Source of the DNA: Myxacorys almedinensis A
GTDB taxonomy: Bacteria > Cyanobacteriota > Cyanobacteriia > Leptolyngbyales > Leptolyngbyaceae
Length of the DNA: 64,000 nucleotides
Assembly: GCF_010091945.1 (NCBI RefSeq)
Contig: NZ_WVIE01000023.1
Location: forward strand, 1 to 64,000
Direction: 5' to 3'
The notes under the pieces were generated by a model. The model saw only the letters and a list, made by a program, of their open reading frames with translations. It was not told where the DNA came from and did no database searches. Below, one piece after another: positions 55,830 through 64,000 of this stretch; within the stretch, counting starts at the first letter, position 1, and each line of letters starts with the position of its first letter. The position numbers and the translations under genes are program-made.

Positions 55830-55855
55830 GACGGCTCCTGGAGGCTAGCGAATCA

Positions 55856-55895
55856 TTTAGTACAATAGTACTATTAATAGTATTAGTGTACTAAA
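55856..55895. promoter_or_regulatory. Nested palindromic operator before the four-gene operon
   Basis: TTTAGTACA (55856-55864) is inverted as TGTACTAAA (55887-55895), and between them lies a perfect 14-bp palindrome TACTATTAATAGTA. The unit AGTACT/AGTAC repeats across the site. It is 27 bp upstream of the minus-strand start at 55829, ideal for an operator bound by a dimeric repressor. Confidence 0.7.
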
Positions 55896-56003
55896 TGCTA
55901 TAAGTCAAGCGATGCCGTGTTCGTAATTTGCATGGGCTGACTAGCCTTACAGAGAGAAATTGATTCGCCTGATGCCCTAAAGCGACGGAATAAACAGAAA
56001 GTC

Positions 56004-57358: not shown

Positions 57359-58228
57359 TCACTCACCCTCCAGCAGCCCATACTGTCTACACAGCCCTTG
57401 CAATTCCTGCTTCACGCGATCGCGCACCCCCTCTGGAAAAACCACCTCACAATCTTGCCCATACCGCAACACCTCTCGAATAAACCAAAACGTATTGCTG
57501 ACTCGCCTCACCACCCGCCTCACCTGCGGCAGATCCGTCAACCATTCATTCACCTCATCGTGGGAGGTCTTACTTCGGTAAGCAAACGCTAACCCTCGAA
57601 ACAAGTGCATCTCAACCCGAATTGTTGCCAAGCTAGAATGCCACTGTCCTGAAACAGGCGCGATCGCGGCATCTGCGATCCGGTCAAACCTTAAACACCG
57701 GTTGTGCCTCAACTCTGGCAGATCTCGGCTGTCTTCCGTTTCCTCGCACCAACAATCGAGATAGTGCCGCTCTTCATGAACGGCAACTTCGGCGCATCGG
57801 ATCGTAAATTGCCACACCCGTTCTGCTGCATCCTGATAGGACAACTGAAACGGTTGCTGCCGTTGGATATAGCGCTCTACTTCGAGCCGCCACGGCGGTG
57901 AAGGATGCTGGATAAATTGCTCTAATTCTATTCGCATCGGGATAGAAATCTCACTGCGGCTTACCAGAATTTGCGCGATCGCTAAGGCATCCTGAATCTG
58001 CCCTGCATCTAGCAACGCAGTCCGGGCATGGTTTAACGAACGAATTCGCTCTGCCGTCCAGTCGTGGTTTGGGGCAATGATTAGCTGGCGACGTGCGATC
58101 GCTTCGACCAATTTAGAAATATTGGCGCGATCGCCCCACGTCATGCCCAATTCGAGCGCTAGGCTCTCTAGCTGTGCCTTGTCGCGATCGGAAATCGATA
58201 ACGTAATTGATTCACCTTTACGACCCAT
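57359..58228 (-). CDS. WYL-domain transcriptional regulator of the CRISPR-Cas locus
   Basis: 289 residues. The N-terminus (SITLSISDRDKAQLESLALELG) looks like a ribbon-helix-helix DNA-binding segment, and the remainder is a WYL-type ligand-binding region (FQLSYQDAAERVWQFTIRCAEVAVHEERHYLDCWCEE, RLFRGLAFAYRS-like, then a WCX-like C-terminus). WYL proteins next to subtype I-D loci are known; the Synechocystis protein Sll7009 negatively affects crRNA accumulation from its I-D array. It is divergent from cas3' with 82 bp between, which holds two ACGTACACTT boxes. Confidence 0.85.
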   Translation of the reverse strand: MGRKGESITLSISDRDKAQLESLALELGMTWGDRANISKLVEAIARRQLIIAPNHDWTAERIRSLNHARTALLDAGQIQDALAIAQILVSRSEISIPMRIELEQFIQHPSPPWRLEVERYIQRQQPFQLSYQDAAERVWQFTIRCAEVAVHEERHYLDCWCEETEDSRDLPELRHNRCLRFDRIADAAIAPVSGQWHSSLATIRVEMHLFRGLAFAYRSKTSHDEVNEWLTDLPQVRRVVRRVSNTFWFIREVLRYGQDCEVVFPEGVRDRVKQELQGLCRQYGLLEGE

Positions 58229-58236
58229 ATTTATGT

Positions 58237-58308
58237 ACGTACACTTTGAACTTGCATATTTTTATTATGCCGATATGATAGACCTATAGCAACTCGTCAC
58301 GTACACTT
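58237..58308. promoter_or_regulatory. Paired ACGTACACTT boxes between the WYL gene and cas3'
   Basis: ACGTACACTT occurs at 58237-58246, nine bases from the WYL start, and at 58299-58308, two bases from the cas3' start. The first overlaps the 10-bp palindrome TGTACGTACA (58234-58243). The spacing is 62 bp. A likely binding pair for the divergent WYL regulator, letting it control both directions. Confidence 0.6.
58252..58279 (+). promoter_or_regulatory. Candidate cas3' promoter
   Basis: TTGCAT (58252-58257), a 16-bp spacer and TATGAT (58274-58279) form a reasonable sigma-70-type promoter. The resulting leader of about 25 bases contains the second ACGTACACTT box. Confidence 0.45.
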
Positions 58309-58310
58309 CG

Positions 58311-60488
58311 ATGAGCAATTATTCTATTACGCTCCAGCCAGTTTATTCTTGCCCTGCGCCAGAAGCGTCGGAGAAATTGAGGCTTCCGGATCAATGGGTG
58401 CTTTCCTGGCATCAGGCAGAAACTTTAAGAGCATTGCAAGATCCAACGATCGATGTGGTCTTTAATACCGCAATGACAGGCGATGGAAAAAGCCTAGCCG
58501 CTTATCTGAGCGTTCTTCAAGGAGACTGTTGTGCGATCGGGTTATATCCCACTAACGAGCTTGCAAGAGATCAGGAAACTCAAATTAAGAACTACATTGA
58601 ACAGTTCAAACCAGAAAATGATCCACGAGTTGTGAGATTGAGCGGAGCAACATTAGAAAACTATGCAGAAAATGAAGACCTGCGAAAAAGTGCCGCGATC
58701 GCGACTCGAACTGAGCAAACAGAAGTTTTACTAACCAATCCGGATCTCTTTCACTACTTGCATCGAGGGGCTTATCTCATGCCGGATGATAGTCCTGACA
58801 AGCTGTGGGGACGAATCGATAAAGTCTTTAAGCTATTCATTTTTGATGAGTTTCATGTGTTCGCTGCGCCTCAGATTTCGAGCGTGATTAATACAATGCT
58901 ATTAATTCGATCGACGAGTCGGCGCAGAAAGTTCTTGTTTCTTTCTGCAACACCAGATGAACAGTTAATTCAGCGATTGAGAAAAGCAGGATTTCGCTGC
59001 AAAGTCATTGACCCGATCGCAGAAAATAAGTATCAATTCCCTGTCTCAGCCGAGCAACAAGAACAGCTTAAATCAGAAAATTGGCGACAAGTTGCACGAT
59101 CGATTAGGCTCAACTTTGTACCGTTGGAGTCTGCTGCAAAAGCCTCAGAAACATGGTTAAGAGATAATGCAGCATTGATTTTAGAGCAGTTCCAGCAACA
59201 TCCTGGAAGTAAAGGGGCAATAATTCTCAATTCGATCGCAGCAGTCAAGCGATTGAAACCTTTCTTTCAAGAGCAACTCTTACCCTATGGTTTAACAGTC
59301 AATGAGAATACGGGACTATCTGGAACAACAGAGCGAGAACAGTCTTTGTCTGCTGATCTGATTTTGGGAACCAGTACGATCGATGTCGGAGTTGACTTTA
59401 AGATCAACTTTCTCATTTTTGAATCGTCTGATGCAGGTAATTTTATCCAGCGCTTTGGACGATTAGGGCGACACGATGGCTATCAACTGAACAATCGAAC
59501 GATTCAGTTTAAGAACTTTACGGCTTATGCACTTGTTCCGAAGTTTTTCACAGAGCGACTGTTTGAAAGAGACTCACCTCCATTGATTCAAGGTGAACAA
59601 TACGATCGTCCTTTTTTCAATGCGACGGTTTTAGATGAGTATCGGACTATCAATGATTTTCGGGGTTACTACAAACGATGGGGAGCTTTTCAGTCGCTTC
59701 ATCTGGGTCGCAAATTAGCACACAAAACGATTCAAGACCAATACGCGAGTAGTTTAGAAGAATTTCAGACCGCTTGTGAGACTGTTTTCGATCGCTCTTT
59801 TAGAGAACTAGCTGGGTTTGTAAAAGGCTGGGGGGAGGCTTGGCAAAAACTTTCGGGCAAAAAAGAGAAAAGTCCAATTTATGAGGATGCTTGTAGTTTC
59901 AGAGGCTCTAGTCCGTTACAGTGCGGCATCTATGATTTGACTGAAGAGAATGAAAGCGATCGCTTTAAAACTTACGATCTCCCCGGAGTTCTCAGCAATC
60001 TAGAAATCGAGATCACGACCGAAGCGGCGTTCATACGATCGCTCAATGACACCGTTCAGCGCACTCAGCACCCGATTCCGAAAGGTCGATTTTCTCACTG
60101 TTTAGCCTTTATGAAACTTCATCGCTATCGAGAAGAGCGATCGAATTGGAAATTTACCTATTCAGGAGACCTCAGCGCAAAAGCCTGGCAAATTCAAGTT
60201 CTCACAGGAATCGAAGTCTGGCAACCGGATAACCCTTGGGCAAGCGAGATCAATAAACGACTGAGAATAGAGGGCTTGGTTGCTTACGTGGTAAAGCGTC
60301 CTGTGGCTGATGTGCGATTTAAGCTAAAGCTGCCGATGCACTTTCAGATTTATCCGATTAGTGATTCGCGCAGTTTTCATGATGTAGTTGCGCCTCATGC
60401 GATCGCGTTTGGACAAAGCGCCCTTCTCCTCGACACCCTCGCCTACCAACTCAAAAGCAAAGGAGGCGAAGACCCATGGATATTTTGA
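58311..60488 (+). CDS. cas3': Type I-D CRISPR-associated helicase Cas3'
   Basis: 725-residue superfamily 2 helicase of subtype I-D interference, which unwinds target DNA; in this subtype the HD nuclease sits on Cas10d, and indeed no HD domain is seen here. Walker A is TGDGKS (56-61), motif II is DEFH (179-182), motif III is SAT (212-214), and motif VI is in FIQRFGRLGRHDGY (378-391). The ATG at 58311 follows the upstream box by two bases and has no good ribosome site, which may itself be regulatory. The stop is one base before the first CRISPR-like repeat. Confidence 0.92.
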   Translation: MSNYSITLQPVYSCPAPEASEKLRLPDQWVLSWHQAETLRALQDPTIDVVFNTAMTGDGKSLAAYLSVLQGDCCAIGLYPTNELARDQETQIKNYIEQFKPENDPRVVRLSGATLENYAENEDLRKSAAIATRTEQTEVLLTNPDLFHYLHRGAYLMPDDSPDKLWGRIDKVFKLFIFDEFHVFAAPQISSVINTMLLIRSTSRRRKFLFLSATPDEQLIQRLRKAGFRCKVIDPIAENKYQFPVSAEQQEQLKSENWRQVARSIRLNFVPLESAAKASETWLRDNAALILEQFQQHPGSKGAIILNSIAAVKRLKPFFQEQLLPYGLTVNENTGLSGTTEREQSLSADLILGTSTIDVGVDFKINFLIFESSDAGNFIQRFGRLGRHDGYQLNNRTIQFKNFTAYALVPKFFTERLFERDSPPLIQGEQYDRPFFNATVLDEYRTINDFRGYYKRWGAFQSLHLGRKLAHKTIQDQYASSLEEFQTACETVFDRSFRELAGFVKGWGEAWQKLSGKKEKSPIYEDACSFRGSSPLQCGIYDLTEENESDRFKTYDLPGVLSNLEIEITTEAAFIRSLNDTVQRTQHPIPKGRFSHCLAFMKLHRYREERSNWKFTYSGDLSAKAWQIQVLTGIEVWQPDNPWASEINKRLRIEGLVAYVVKRPVADVRFKLKLPMHFQIYPISDSRSFHDVVAPHAIAFGQSALLLDTLAYQLKSKGGEDPWIF

Positions 60489-60489
60489 T

Positions 60490-60603
60490 GTTTCAGTCCC
60501 GTTGCCGGGATTTAGAAGAATCTGACGGAGATGAAACAGCTTACGCCATTAAGTGCAGACGTATTTATTTCAATCCCGTTGCCGGGATTCAATTCCCTGT
60601 GTT
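60490..60603 (-). CRISPR. One-spacer CRISPR mini-array, or crRNA-like regulatory RNA gene
   Basis: Two 37-bp repeat-like units (60490-60526 and 60567-60603) flank a 40-bp spacer-like segment. Their cores, TTTCAGTCCCGTTGCCGGGA and TTTCAATCCCGTTGCCGGGA, differ at one position and fold as TCCCG-TTGC-CGGGA. Read on the minus strand the unit ends CGGGACTGAAAC, like I-D repeats I remember from Synechocystis CRISPR1, so the RNA would run opposite to cas3'. In that direction the first repeat has a diverged 5' half and the handle ATTGAAAT instead of ACTGAAAC. A weak -10 box TACAAT lies at 60632-60637 on the minus strand. There is no spacer series, so a standard array is unlikely; a CreA-like element is the alternative. 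Confidence 0.65.
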
Positions 60604-60786
60604 TAACGCAAGGCTCCGCAGACATCCTGAAATTGTATCAAGTCTCGACTTATTTAGCCGTTAAATAGGTCTGAACTTGAAAAATCTCTTGCCATCGGCT
60701 GTCGATCAGGCTAGATTTTGATCGGCTAAAAGAAATGGTTCGTTTGAACTGTAAATTTAGTCACATCTTTTACCACGGAGGATTTT

Positions 60787-60990
60787 ATGGATTCCAAGAA
60801 GACCAAGCTAGAATTGTTGCGCGAACTTCTCTCGGATGCAACATGGCACTGGGGCGATGAACTGGCTGTAAAAGTCGGACATCGTTTTGGGGCAACGATT
60901 AAACTAGCTAGAGACAAAGGCTACTTGATTGAAACGAATCGAGTGGGGCTGAAAAATCGCTACCGGATGTTGAAAACTTCAGTTCGTTAA
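60787..60990 (+). CDS. Small winged-helix-like DNA-binding protein
   Basis: 67 residues: KTKLELLRELLSDATWHWGDELAVKVGHRFGATIKLARDKGYLIET is a helix-helix-turn-helix with a following wing (NRVGLKNRYRML). It has an excellent CGGAGG ribosome site. I recall similar small proteins from cyanobacterial genomes, without a function. Its place between cas3' and the toxin-antitoxin genes suggests a local regulator, possibly of the latter. Confidence 0.7.
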   Translation: MDSKKTKLELLRELLSDATWHWGDELAVKVGHRFGATIKLARDKGYLIETNRVGLKNRYRMLKTSVR

Positions 60991-61011
60991 AAACTTTAGG
61001 CTCTCTATAAT

Positions 61012-61100
61012 TCTAAGAAAGTCTGCCTACGATTAGAGGGAAGTTCTCGAATAGCTTTCGGCATTAAGTACAGGCATAAGTAATCTCAACCCCCTTCTAG
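61012..61100. repeat. Diverged copy of the mini-array's spacer region
   Basis: At 61053-61078, 26 bases match the spacer-like segment at 60538-60563 at 21 positions, including CATTAAGT. Weak similarity continues on both sides: TCTCAACCCC where the array has TTTCAATCCC, and TTCTAAGAAAG near the position of TTTAGAAGAA. It lies 130-155 bp before the start of the DUF433-MNT gene, in its presumed promoter region. No gene is present in 60991-61207. Confidence 0.5.
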
Positions 61101-61207
61101 ATACTTCGGTAACAAGGTTGGTTAAGTAACGATAAATCCTAAACCTAAAATGCAAATCGCCCTAAACGCTTCCCTCTTTCTTTAACTTATCTAAAAAGTT
61201 GCGGGAC

Positions 61208-61882
61208 ATGAATGAACAAACCCTTCTAAAGCGAATTACGATCGATCGCAAAATTCTCAATGGCAAACCTGCGATTCGGGAACGCCTTACTGTTGAACGC
61301 GCCTTAGAACTACTGGCAACCGGAGAAACGTTTGAAACAATAGTAGAAAGTTATCCTTGGTTGGAACGGGAAGACCTTCAAGCTTGTCTAGTTTATGCCC
61401 GTCAGCTAGTGCTTCAGGAACAAGCTAAACCCTCATATCAGCAGCCACAAACTTTAGAAGATCTCATTGAACTGGTTCCGCAAATCCTTGAGCAAGTTCC
61501 CTACCTCAAACTATTAGTGCTCTTTGGCTCCAGAGCTAGAGGGGATCATGATGCAAACAGCGATTGGGACTTTGCTTTTCTGTGTGATGAAGAACGCCGT
61601 AAAGAGTACGAAAAGGGAGGCTTCGACTTTCTTCGTATCTGGGGAGTTTTGCAACAGGTTTACAAGCTAGGCGATGACCAGATTGATGCGATTGATATGA
61701 AAGAGTGTTCAGATGTGCTAGCGCATAATATTGCAAAAGACGGGCAGATCCTTTATGAACTCGAACCCGGAGAATTTGAGCGATTTCAGCAGCAGAAACT
61801 AATGAGTAAAGAACAACTTAAAATTTTTCGGCAGCAACAGCGAGAGATGATTCAATCTACCTTAGAGAAATTGAAACGATGA
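61208..61882 (+). CDS. DUF433-MNT nucleotidyltransferase antitoxin fusion
   Basis: 224 residues from the ATG at 61208. Residues about 5-70 are a DUF433 (VapB45-like) domain: RITIDRKILNGKPAIRERLTVERALELLATGE with EREDLQACLVYA. Residues about 95-190 are a minimal nucleotidyltransferase: LLVLFGSRARGDHDANSDWDFAFL, with GSRARG at 107-112 and catalytic aspartates D119 and D121. MntA-type enzymes neutralise their HEPN toxin by adding AMP to a tyrosine. The stop overlaps the next start as ATGA. DUF433 is itself usually an antitoxin or DNA-binding domain, so the fusion may combine transcription control with toxin modification. Confidence 0.85.
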   Translation: MNEQTLLKRITIDRKILNGKPAIRERLTVERALELLATGETFETIVESYPWLEREDLQACLVYARQLVLQEQAKPSYQQPQTLEDLIELVPQILEQVPYLKLLVLFGSRARGDHDANSDWDFAFLCDEERRKEYEKGGFDFLRIWGVLQQVYKLGDDQIDAIDMKECSDVLAHNIAKDGQILYELEPGEFERFQQQKLMSKEQLKIFRQQQREMIQSTLEKLKR

Positions 61883-62349
61883 AGGAATTCACCTCGATCA
61901 CGGTTGGCGAAAAAATAGGAGGAATTGGAAGGCGATTACAACGCCTCGATCGCTTTCAATCTCTGACGTTGGACGAATATCTGCAAGATGAAGATATACA
62001 AAGCATTATTGAACGCCTACTTGAACAAATTATTCAATCTGCTCTTGATATCAATCGGGCTTTCCTCAAGCGCGTTGCTGGAATTGCTTCAGAAGGTGGC
62101 AAAGCTCCAAAAAATGCTGAGACATTTACCTTAGCTGGGCAGTATGGATTGATTTCTCCAGCATTAGGTAAACGTATGGAGAAATCAGGAGGATTTCGCA
62201 ATGTACTAGCTCACTTGTATGACGAAATCATTGCTGAAAAGGTATACGAAGCTCTGCAATATGCTTTGACTGATTACCCACAGTATGTTGCAGAAGTTGA
62301 AGCCTATTTGAATTTACTGGAACAAACAGATGACGAAGAATCAGACTGA
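61879..62349 (+). CDS. HEPN-domain toxin (HepT-like RNase)
   Basis: 156 residues, all-helical. The RNase motif is R107-x4-H112-x-Y114 (FRNVLAHLYDEI); Y114 is the residue that MntA-type partners modify with AMP. It has an N-terminal extension of about 25 residues beyond short HepT proteins and an acidic C-terminus (LLEQTDDEESD). It is coupled to the antitoxin gene by ATGA and overlaps cas10d by 20 bases, so toxin and Cas effector are made from one transcript. Confidence 0.87.
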   Translation: MKEFTSITVGEKIGGIGRRLQRLDRFQSLTLDEYLQDEDIQSIIERLLEQIIQSALDINRAFLKRVAGIASEGGKAPKNAETFTLAGQYGLISPALGKRMEKSGGFRNVLAHLYDEIIAEKVYEALQYALTDYPQYVAEVEAYLNLLEQTDDEESD

Positions 62350-64000
62350 TCATCAAATAGAGCAATTATCGCTTGATGTGGAAGAGATGACAGAAGGTAT
62401 AGATCAACTAGATGATTGGAAAGATGATTCTGAGCTAGAAGGTGAAAGCAGTTCTCGCACGATCGAACCCGTTCAACGCGAGTTACTCACTCTCAAACTC
62501 CTTCGAGAAGCAATTCAGGCGCAAAATCCGAATGATGCTGTGATGCAAGACTTTGCTGAGTATGTTTTACCGAATCTATTGAGAATTGCGATCGGTGTTA
62601 CTGCAAAAGGCGGAAAATTTACAGAGCGTCGAGATGCAGAAGCTGCGGCGAGAGGAGAAAAAAATACAAGTAGGCGTAGTGCAGCAGACCAGTCGCTGAA
62701 TACGCATTTGTTGAACGGGCTGTTTCCAGCGAATCTAATCGAACAGAGACTAGAAAAGCTTGATACTACGATTCGTAGAGTAGTGAAAGAAAAAGAACGG
62801 AGACTTGCGATCGCAGGCTTCATTCTTCACGATTTTGAGAAATTTCCTGATGTTCCCGATGACTGTCGCAAATTAGCGATCGCAGAACATCGGCAAATTA
62901 TTGATCAGAAAGTTCAACAGCTAGGACTCGATCGATTTATTGATCCAAACAATGCTGAAACGTATCGAGATTACATTGATGACTTACTTTGTATTGCCTA
63001 CAATGCACAGCGACGATGGGACACAAATTGGAACTTTTCTGAGTATGGACTAGACCCGATTCTCAACGGTCAGAAGCTTTCAAGCCTTGCGAATCTAGCT
63101 TGTCTCGCAGATTCTCTGGCTTCGATCGTCAAACATCCGCATGATGCTAAAACTTCTAGGCTCAAAGAGCTAATTCATACGCTTAGTGATGGAAAGCTGA
63201 AATTTACCTATCACAGCATTTCAGAAAATCGCGGTGCTCTAACAAACGTTGTTAATAATGCGCTAGTAGATGCACATACGAACCTCAATACAGATGAGTG
63301 TATCTATGAGCCGTTGCTATACCTGCCAACTGGAGTAATCTATCTCGCGATTAAAGATGCACCAGAGATCGATCCCAGCGATCTCCCTGATCGAGTCGTC
63401 AATAAAATCAAAGACCTATGTACTGAGCAATTACGGCTCAGACAAACTGGATTTGGGCGAGACGGCAAAGGAATGAAATATGCCGATTACTATGGATTGT
63501 TTTGCAGCGATCGCACTTTGATGCAAATCGCACTGGATGCAACTCTGCGAATTTTGTCGCCGAGTAAACCGTCAGTCGCGAAGAGTCGGAATGACAAGCT
63601 AATCGATTTTCAGCAGAAAGGTGCGTTGTCTTCTGATTATGATTTTGGCTTTGAAGATGACATTCGCATTGACCAGATTGCTGAATTTGGCGATGTGGTG
63701 AGCCGCAAAATTTGGGGCGATCGCGTTGAAAAAATCACCACTGCCCGCAGACACGATAAAAAACTTCCTGAACTTCCTGACCTAAATTTGACGCAAATCG
63801 TTGCTGAGTCGCTAGGACTGGCTGAATATTTACCGCAAATTCGAGAGATTCAGAAAATTAATGAGACGCTCAAGGAGAGAAAGCTCAAAGGCAGCACAGG
63901 TGGAATTCCTTACGAATGGTACTATCTAGCCGCAAAGTATCTAGAGCAGCATCCCGGCATTGAGAATGTCCGTGAACTGTGCGATCGCATTATCACTTGC
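62330..64000 (+). CDS. cas10d: Type I-D CRISPR-associated protein Cas10d (Csc3), N-terminal part
   Basis: The frame opens at the ATG at 62330 and is open for 557 codons to the window end, so the C-terminus is missing. The first 45 residues are acidic and disordered (SLDVEEMTEGIDQLDDWKDDSE). The HD nuclease motif is in AIAGFILHDFEKFPD (H167, D168). Later segments include LANLACLADSLASIVKHP, CIYEPLLYLPTGVIYLAIKD and RQTGFGRDGKGMKYADYYGLF. Cas10d is the large subunit and carries the nuclease of subtype I-D. The 20-base overlap with the toxin gene indicates a common operon; csc2, csc1, cas6 and the adaptation genes would be expected downstream. Confidence 0.9.
   Translation, partial: MTKNQTDHQIEQLSLDVEEMTEGIDQLDDWKDDSELEGESSSRTIEPVQRELLTLKLLREAIQAQNPNDAVMQDFAEYVLPNLLRIAIGVTAKGGKFTERRDAEAAARGEKNTSRRSAADQSLNTHLLNGLFPANLIEQRLEKLDTTIRRVVKEKERRLAIAGFILHDFEKFPDVPDDCRKLAIAEHRQIIDQKVQQLGLDRFIDPNNAETYRDYIDDLLCIAYNAQRRWDTNWNFSEYGLDPILNGQKLSSLANLACLADSLASIVKHPHDAKTSRLKELIHTLSDGKLKFTYHSISENRGALTNVVNNALVDAHTNLNTDECIYEPLLYLPTGVIYLAIKDAPEIDPSDLPDRVVNKIKDLCTEQLRLRQTGFGRDGKGMKYADYYGLFCSDRTLMQIALDATLRILSPSKPSVAKSRNDKLIDFQQKGALSSDYDFGFEDDIRIDQIAEFGDVVSRKIWGDRVEKITTARRHDKKLPELPDLNLTQIVAESLGLAEYLPQIREIQKINETLKERKLKGSTGGIPYEWYYLAAKYLEQHPGIENVRELCDRIITC

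Follow-up and report, generated by a model that had tools for sequence, protein, structure and literature searches.

Self-directed guide RNAs have been reported for CRISPR-Cas types I-B, I-E, I-F and V-A. CreTA, a CRISPR-regulated RNA toxin-antitoxin, is described for the I-B system of Haloarcula and the I-F system of Acinetobacter; its guide CreA pairs via positions 1-5 and 7-11, with positions 6 and 12 dispensable (PMC8501985), and known CreP proteins, the guide-repressed protein toxins of CrePA, typically carry a KilA-N domain (PMC12737573). For type I-D, the PAM is GTN (PMC10212523, PMC9123187). I-D Cascade binds ssRNA in vitro independently of a PAM, with a designed target matching the crRNA spacer, and the same paper leaves open how the complex picks among ssRNA, ssDNA and dsDNA (PMC9123187). 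No I-D case of such a guide, nor a guide with a second, RNA-side target, was found in the open-licence literature.

The window, i.e. the whole stretch of 64,000 nucleotides analysed here, contains the cas3d side of a type I-D locus with the gene order WYL regulator, cas3d, guide unit, HTH gene, DUF433-MNT gene, HepT gene, cas10d, further genes and a CRISPR array. The genes after cas10d are presumably csc2, csc1, cas6, cas4, cas1 and cas2, names assigned from gene order. The protein-coding features are:

58311-60488, plus strand: cas3d, the type I-D helicase Cas3' (PADLOC Cas3d, E 3e-194)
60787-60990, plus strand: small winged-helix gene (HTH, PADLOC PDLC01152), the first gene past site A
61199-61882, plus strand: DUF433-MNT nucleotidyltransferase (cargo)
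61879-62349, plus strand: HepT-like HEPN ribonuclease (cargo)
62330-64000, plus strand: cas10d, 1132 aa in all, extending past the window end

The product of 61199-61882 is an MNT antitoxin-like protein with a DUF433 domain fused to its N-terminus. In related loci (L053-L132), the interval between cas3d and cas10d is a cargo hotspot with varying combinations of HepT/MNT pairs, DUF433 genes and transposase-like genes, and with 339-aa PDDEXK-type proteins. Wherever cas10d was located, in the window as in other loci, it lies downstream in the same direction, often with other genes intervening. Synechocystis 6803 was ruled out as a model strain by its gap of only 13 bp between cas3 and cas10d. Outside the cas genes, two adjoining 22-nt arms with 91% complementarity were noted at 55854-55897.

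The guide unit follows cas3d directly, beginning at the second base past its stop codon, and is read on the minus strand, antisense to cas3d. It consists of a single 40-bp spacer (60527-60566) between one repeat unit at 60490-60526 and another at 60567-60603, which confirms the arrangement given for 60490-60603 in the initial annotation, as well as its observation that the first repeat is degenerate in both the 5' half and the handle: the 5' half is lost and the handle reads ATTGAAAT in place of ACTGAAAC.

60567-60603, minus strand: psi-repeat 1, first in RNA direction, with degenerate 5' half and handle ATTGAAAT
60527-60566, minus strand: psi-spacer AAATACGTCTGCACTTAATGGCG..., matching site A at positions 1-16 except 6 and 12, and element B in part at positions 4-29
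60490-60526, minus strand: psi-repeat 2, handle ACTGAAAC, with one base different from the C15 array repeat over the 3' 26 nt
60632-60637, minus strand: TACAAT, candidate -10 of the guide RNA, assigned by eye and absent from the promoter-scan list

The stem core CCCGGCAACGGGA is kept in both repeats, the spacer starts with AAATACGTCTGCACTT in crRNA sense, and the handle is taken to be 8 nt long. Of the 120 copies of the core in the whole genome, contig C3 carries 77 as an array, the C15 array has 37, four lie on C27 and two belong to the unit. The C15 array sits after the cas genes and has the repeat GTTTCAAAAACCCAAATCCCGGCAACGGGACTGAAAC; the ordinary array repeats differ from those of the unit in the 5' half. 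The unit thus stands apart from the three ordinary arrays of the genome, with degenerate repeats that keep stem and handle. The third array (C27, 38786-39028) is short, with four copies of the C15-type repeat, and a spacer stretch TTTTTATTAGAAAATAGTGATTCCTTGCCCACACA is common to the C15 and C3 arrays (L021, about 16701; L022), though their repeat 5' halves differ. An Rfam search of 58000-62500 gave no match up to E 1.

Related loci were collected by an aligned-Cas3d search, from which the best 80 of 200 matched loci (cyanobacterial-type, with record titles) were kept. Together with the window's own locus this made 81, of which 80 were usable, L111 being left out as its contig ends after cas3d. 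A unit with such a repeat end was found at the same position and in the same orientation in 61 of the 80 usable cyanobacterial I-D loci (from the best 80 of 200). Under a strict rule, by which units with the handle less than 50 nt or more than 170 nt from the cas3d stop were left out, 60 loci remained; L063 was lost to this rule despite a 10/10 site, and the looser rule was used for the 61/80 count and for the 64 units below. L103 was scored as lacking the unit, though unit-like repeats with a GAATAAGTCTG spacer sit about 1 kb further on its minus strand (about +980 to +1072 past cas3d). The small-gene count covered 83 loci, three plasmid loci among them, 64 with and 19 without the unit; the 64 include Stanieria pSTA7437.01 (L136), which has a lone repeat-like handle and no GTN seed site among the matches listed.

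The 5' side of the operon downstream of the unit holds the following elements:

60660-60678, plus strand: site A, PAM GTT (60660-60662) and protospacer AAATAGGTCTGAACTT, identical to spacer positions 1-16 except 6 and 12
60689-60717, plus strand: sigma70-like pair TTGCCA-17-TAGATT, overlapping the expected Cascade footprint at site A
60640-60658, minus strand: inverted second site A' with seed-like AAATAAGTC, flanked by GCT, not GTN, and assigned by eye

For scoring, the seed was defined as spacer positions 1-5 and 7-11, and targets were sought within 300 nt with a GTN flank, positions outside the seed serving only as tie-breakers. In the window, site A matches in 10 of 10 seed positions with GTT. 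The exact pattern GTNAAATANGTCTG occurs in the genome only at site A and with one mismatch in 16 more places (25 for the reversed control pattern). A GTN-flanked target of the locus' own spacer was present at 9/10 or better in 49 of the 60 unit loci (set from the best 80 of 200) and at 8/10 in 54, leaving 11 and six loci, respectively, where it was missing. Seed matches of at least 9/10 with GTN were obtained with 0.15% of 6000 shuffled spacers and 0.85% of 2482 spacers of other classes. When the search was repeated free of the PAM, a site was found in 50 of 60 loci, and 49 of these 50 best sites were GT-flanked. Over these 50 loci, the match rate was near 1 at positions 1-5, 0.34 at position 6, 0.80-1.0 at 7-11 and 0.30 at 12; past the seed it was 0.64-0.82 at 13-16 and 0.14-0.44 beyond. 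The distance from the handle-spacer junction, determined for the 46 plus-strand 9/10 loci, was 71-134 nt in 42 and 160-304 nt in four. By single linkage the spacers formed eight clusters, with 9/10 sites in four of them (29/32, 18/21, 1/1 and 1/1), 8/10 sites in one more (2/2) and none in the three singletons L085, L108 and L127. The large clusters are diverse, including AAATACGTCTG, GAATAACCATG, TTCCGTAGCTA, ACGAGCTACTC, ATGACATACTC and CTCGCCTACTC, each with its own matching target. An inverted GTN site towards the guide's own promoter region was found in 15 of 52 loci, compared to 2 of 1040 shuffles.

Comparison with related I-D loci, which the initial annotation had proposed, revealed conservation of the unit (61/80) together with a covarying target at 9/10 or better (49/60). 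Chance origin is excluded, since different genera share the unit and a change in the guide is accompanied by one in the target. The alternative that the unit is the decayed leftover of an ordinary array, also raised in the initial annotation, draws on the ordinary arrays with the same core repeat in this genome; it was rejected and has a negligible probability given that the unit keeps its place and orientation in 61 of 80 loci and that its target covaries in 49 of 60. Scanning this part of the window for promoters yielded two hits, against 1.7 in shuffles, i.e. no excess. Site A appears as a target at a promoter-like site of the small winged-helix gene, where we infer a working promoter. After the precedent of CreA, Cascade held at such a short seed match would very probably act as a repressor there.

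Past site A, the first gene is in most loci a small ORF, and these ORFs fall into four families, which we counted in the 83 loci with models built from members of the same loci: HTH (28), coiled-coil (13, of which the assignments of L077 and L122 are weak, with E about 7e-4), QLxLF...AA (11) and a second winged-helix-like family (3). Of the 64 loci with the unit, 55 have a small gene, compared to one of the 19 without (p 1e-10). Within the cas3d-cas10d slot, nine of 64 units lack a recognised small gene, whereas one of 56 small genes lacks a guide; this asymmetry favours a gene that is unsafe without the guide, and a dedicated regulator would look similar. Across 12 independent pairs of loci, unit and small gene changed in the same way in 7.8, showed no change in 4.2 and never changed in opposite ways (median p 0.008).

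Three of the families track their own spacer type in 40 of 42 loci, the types having been defined after the spacers had been seen: HTH genes go with RAATA spacers (26/28), QLxLF genes with YTC (11/11) and the second winged-helix family with CCATG (3/3). For the coiled-coil family the spacer type is 'other' in 13 of 13, a mixture that includes none of these three types. Mapped on the Cas3d tree (L060 missing), the family labels require 42 changes, compared to a mean of 46.8 and a minimum of 42 in 30 label shuffles. Family is therefore near-random on this tree, which indicates that the cassette is swapped almost freely, guide and gene staying together.

The QLxLF and HTH families were also searched irrespective of cas genes in 242 genomes, and 26 loci (L137-L162) out of 39 places matched were checked. 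The QLxLF search gave six matches, all six directly past cas3d and five with guide and 9/10 site A. HTH matches occurred in 29 of the 242 genomes; among 20 loci fetched, 14 had the guide and a 9/10 site A and six had no recognised guide or scored site, two of these lying before cas3d, three in stretches without cas3d and one after cas3d without a scored site. In L157 and L162, more distant I-D loci, HTH relatives precede cas3d rather than follow it.

The HTH protein of the window has a winged-helix fold, with ArsR-like proteins as best PDB matches at E 0.04 and none below 0.001. Two of the four small families look HTH-like, one of them by weak matches only. The QLxLF proteins of class 2 (L073, L095, L089, L125, L118, L059, L098, L106, L097, L068 and L134, at about +320 to +860 past cas3d) have about 62-69 aa and two motifs, QLxLF (QMELF once) and another of QLxL type; the C-terminal residues are AA in all 11 and LAA in eight. 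The motifs resemble clamp-binding signals and the LAA tail a degradation signal, which makes these proteins candidate clamp binders with a degradation tail. The coiled-coil proteins occupy the same slot in L061, L066, L096, L100, L062, L075, L079, L104, L112, L063 and L127; several end in LQNLVDFYCPPD or alike, with ends such as CPPD, and their guides have many different spacers, with no element B at 16/24 where scored (L063 unscored). In Pfam, no KilA-N match was listed for six window proteins and ten small proteins.

On these associations, the predicted partner of the guide is a small gene of four alternative families, rather than the HEPN-MNT pair that the initial annotation had placed under its guard. 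In the window this pair does lie downstream of site A and element B. Its genes show no association with the unit, however: HepT is present in 26 of 61 loci with and seven of 19 without the unit (p 0.79), MNT in 30 of 61 and six of 19 (p 0.20). Some loci, such as that of PCC 7117, have the unit and a small gene yet no toxin-antitoxin pair before cas10d. Specific repression of HEPN-MNT is therefore highly improbable, and the pair was ruled out as the guarded one on co-occurrence; being downstream in the same direction, it could still be co-repressed together with cas10d. Of the CreTA-like design that had been suggested, the part that stands is a conserved guide of CreA/CreR type with a PAM-flanked, part-complementary target at a promoter-like site. 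The small proteins themselves could be toxins, at odds below even, and are about as likely to be regulators of cas genes.

A second match to the spacer lies further downstream:

61053-61078, plus strand: element B, which has no GTN flank and whose sense RNA can pair with guide positions 29-4, each sixth position being free across the family
61035-61044, plus strand: helix P1, 5' strand
61168-61177, plus strand: helix P1, 3' strand

The element B family was first seen in local alignments of the spacers to the downstream region, as minus-strand matches. As the guide sequence lies on the minus strand of B, the transcript of the plus strand is complementary to the guide. In an ungapped test with spacer positions 9-32 and a threshold of 16/24, B was found in 40 of 60 unit loci, compared to 2.2% with shuffled spacers, 3.7% with swapped spacers and three of 60 on the plus strand. 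Among the 20 loci below threshold are all 12 of the 60 whose small gene is of the coiled-coil family; in L127, a B-like match with gaps was seen. In class 1, B lies past the HTH gene, inside a helix AGAGGGAAGC/GCUUCCCUCU and ahead of the following cargo gene or cas10d; in class 2, it lies just past the promoter-like site and before the small gene.

For positions 4-30, the number of matching loci out of 40 was 34, 35, 12, 32, 16, 33, 37, 39, 13, 33, 37, 36, 39, 39, 13, 33, 38, 22, 33, 39, 7, 40, 37, 38, 38, 39 and 5, dropping steeply at 6, 12, 18, 24 and 30 and less so at 8 and 21. Matching was poorest at multiples of six in 38 of 40 loci; the same phase was the worst in each of the three named spacer groups, while the two ungrouped loci had no clear phase. 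In 16 non-redundant loci, 19 of 80 flipped positions matched, compared to 299 of 352 others (p 5e-26, with cells counted, not events). Within strict groups, B fitted its own spacer better than permuted ones, with 18.71/24 versus 17.66 (sd 0.20) in the RAATA group and 18.00 versus 14.53 (sd 0.63) in the YTC group, and 0 of 5000 permutations reaching the observed value in each. Out of 28 further loci (L134, L135, L137-L162), ten with a 9/10 site A and a spacer not 30-nt-identical to the set were kept, a choice by which their site A profile is selected and which includes some near relatives of set members; B was present in all ten, with 14 of 50 flipped positions matching versus 192 of 220 others.

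A GTN flank is absent at element B. In the main group, spacer positions 2 and 3 match in one and two of 24 loci, respectively, while the YTC group has matches at positions 2-5 in 9-11 of 11 loci. We consider it unlikely that B is a dsDNA target, given the missing GTN and the mismatches at positions 2-3 in nearly all main-group loci; since positions 2-5 match in the YTC group, the case there rests on the missing PAM. PAM-independent ssRNA binding by I-D Cascade explains how B could be recognised, and on the simplest reading, which we consider probable, the complex that acts at site A also binds the leader RNA, with B as its target there.

Element B may have originated as a copy of the unit: its flank resembles a repeat end (GGGGGTTGAGATT versus GGGATTGAAAT), and spacer DNA and B have the same orientation. 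That B is still just what remains of a duplicated unit, or a protein-binding site common to B and the spacer DNA, is unlikely, as the 6-nt mismatch periodicity, seen in three groups and in the ten further loci, is the trace expected from pairing inside Cascade, and as B and spacer covary within two groups (0/5000 permutations each). Chance decay would not keep every sixth position free, and B as a simple duplicate was dropped on the position profile.

The surrounding RNA suggests a structured leader. Each of the ten pairs of helix P1 is kept in 16-18 of 18 sequences, with a two-sided change in only two of 16 predicted pairs of the leader fold. The leader RNA of the window is no more stable than shuffles (z -0.86), and the score of another hairpin, ahead of B, exceeds that of shuffles only slightly (9.8 versus 7.4, sd 1.3). 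An RNA toxin within the leader is a possible partner of the guide.

We read the unit as a crRNA-like regulatory guide of the I-D system that acts on site A and element B as part of an exchangeable cassette, and put the probability of this reading at roughly 0.7. Sequence statistics carry the guide itself, its target at site A, the PAM, the 6-nt periodicity, the pairing with B and the linkage of guide and gene. The unit would be transcribed on the minus strand, and its RNA cut by Cas6 at both repeats and loaded into I-D Cascade; this expression and loading, the direction of the effect and the role of the small protein, toxin or regulator, are what we infer. Guide nucleotides 1-11 to 1-16 would recognise site A at the promoter of the small gene heading the cas10d-side operon, and as the pairing is too short for full interference, Cascade would stay there and block transcription. 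Through positions 4-29, the same guide would pair with the sense leader RNA of the operon at element B, and B, lacking a PAM and with the seed mostly broken, should escape attack as DNA. As long as Cascade is available, the operon would thus be held down both at the promoter and through its RNA; loss of Cascade, its titration by crRNAs or its inhibition would release the operon. Guide and small gene would be exchanged as one unit between I-D loci. The fuller proposal, in which one guide has two targets, promoter DNA at A and leader RNA at B, in an exchangeable cassette with at least one small protein perhaps blocking replication at the sliding clamp, seems to us an even bet.

Two narrower accounts of the output were weighed against this. 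The guide could serve autorepression of the CreR kind only, setting Cas levels via the promoter of the cas10d operon, with the small gene as its unguarded first gene and perhaps a cas regulator; we give this somewhat less than even odds. It accords with the co-directional cas10d, with loci in which no small gene is recognised (in L116, site A is at +160 and the cas10d match starts at +373), with the HTH-like nature of two of four small families (one by weak matches) and with CreR being given for I-B, I-E and V-A in reviews. Such autorepression would not require spacer type to track small-gene family, nor does it sit well with small genes almost never occurring without a guide in the cas3d-cas10d interval (1 of 19 loci without the unit) or with the QLxLF...AA family, which is unlike a regulator. 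The other account, addiction of the CreTA/CrePA kind, holds that the small genes encode toxins kept down by guide and Cascade, so that a cell in which Cascade is lost or inhibited is poisoned. It would fit the alternation of four unrelated small genes in one slot, the excess of guides without gene (9/64) over genes without guide (1/56), the position of all six QLxLF matches from 242 genomes directly past cas3d, and the QLxLF motif, second QLxL-type motif and AA end (11/11), which resemble clamp-binding and degradation signals. The ordinary-looking winged helix encoded in the window and the six of 20 examined HTH loci without a recognised guide speak against it, and we rate this account as less likely than not.

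Should the two-target reading be true, element B would, to our knowledge, be the first RNA target found in nature for a type I Cascade. It would supply a natural purpose for RNA binding by I-D Cascade, and the defence system may regulate itself both at the DNA switch of the neighbouring genes and through the RNA of the region. Site A, the partner gene and the RNA-side match go beyond what the initial annotation saw. The QLxLF small proteins are a lead towards a new growth inhibitor, and the cultured strain Picosynechococcus sp. PCC 7117 has guide, site A, element B, small gene and cas10d, with no toxin-antitoxin gene annotated between.

The self-targeting guide described here appears in type I-D, in most of the cyanobacterial loci examined and with small partner genes of its own. 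It shares with CreTA two degenerate repeats around one spacer in a cas locus, the first repeat being more degenerate, and a PAM with seed pairing at 1-5 and 7-11, positions 6 and 12 being free in both, at a promoter, here a putative one. Unlike CreTA, the system is I-D, the partner resembles a small protein gene and not an RNA toxin, pairing reaches position 16, and there is a second, PAM-less match on the sense RNA. As in CrePA, the guide is directed at the promoter, here a putative one, of a small protein gene within the cas locus, and this gene lies directly under the guide's target; in place of a KilA-N protein, which was not found, there are four alternative small genes. With CreR, given for I-B, I-E and V-A, it shares limited complementarity to a promoter, here a putative one, upstream of cas effector genes, and it differs in being I-D, in the dedicated small gene that usually stands between promoter and cas10d, and in the second target proposed in the leader RNA. 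The ssRNA bound by I-D Cascade in PMC9123187 was a designed target, whereas element B would be a natural one. The type of guide is thus known from CreTA, CrePA and CreR, and a guide with two targets is the part that would be new in principle.
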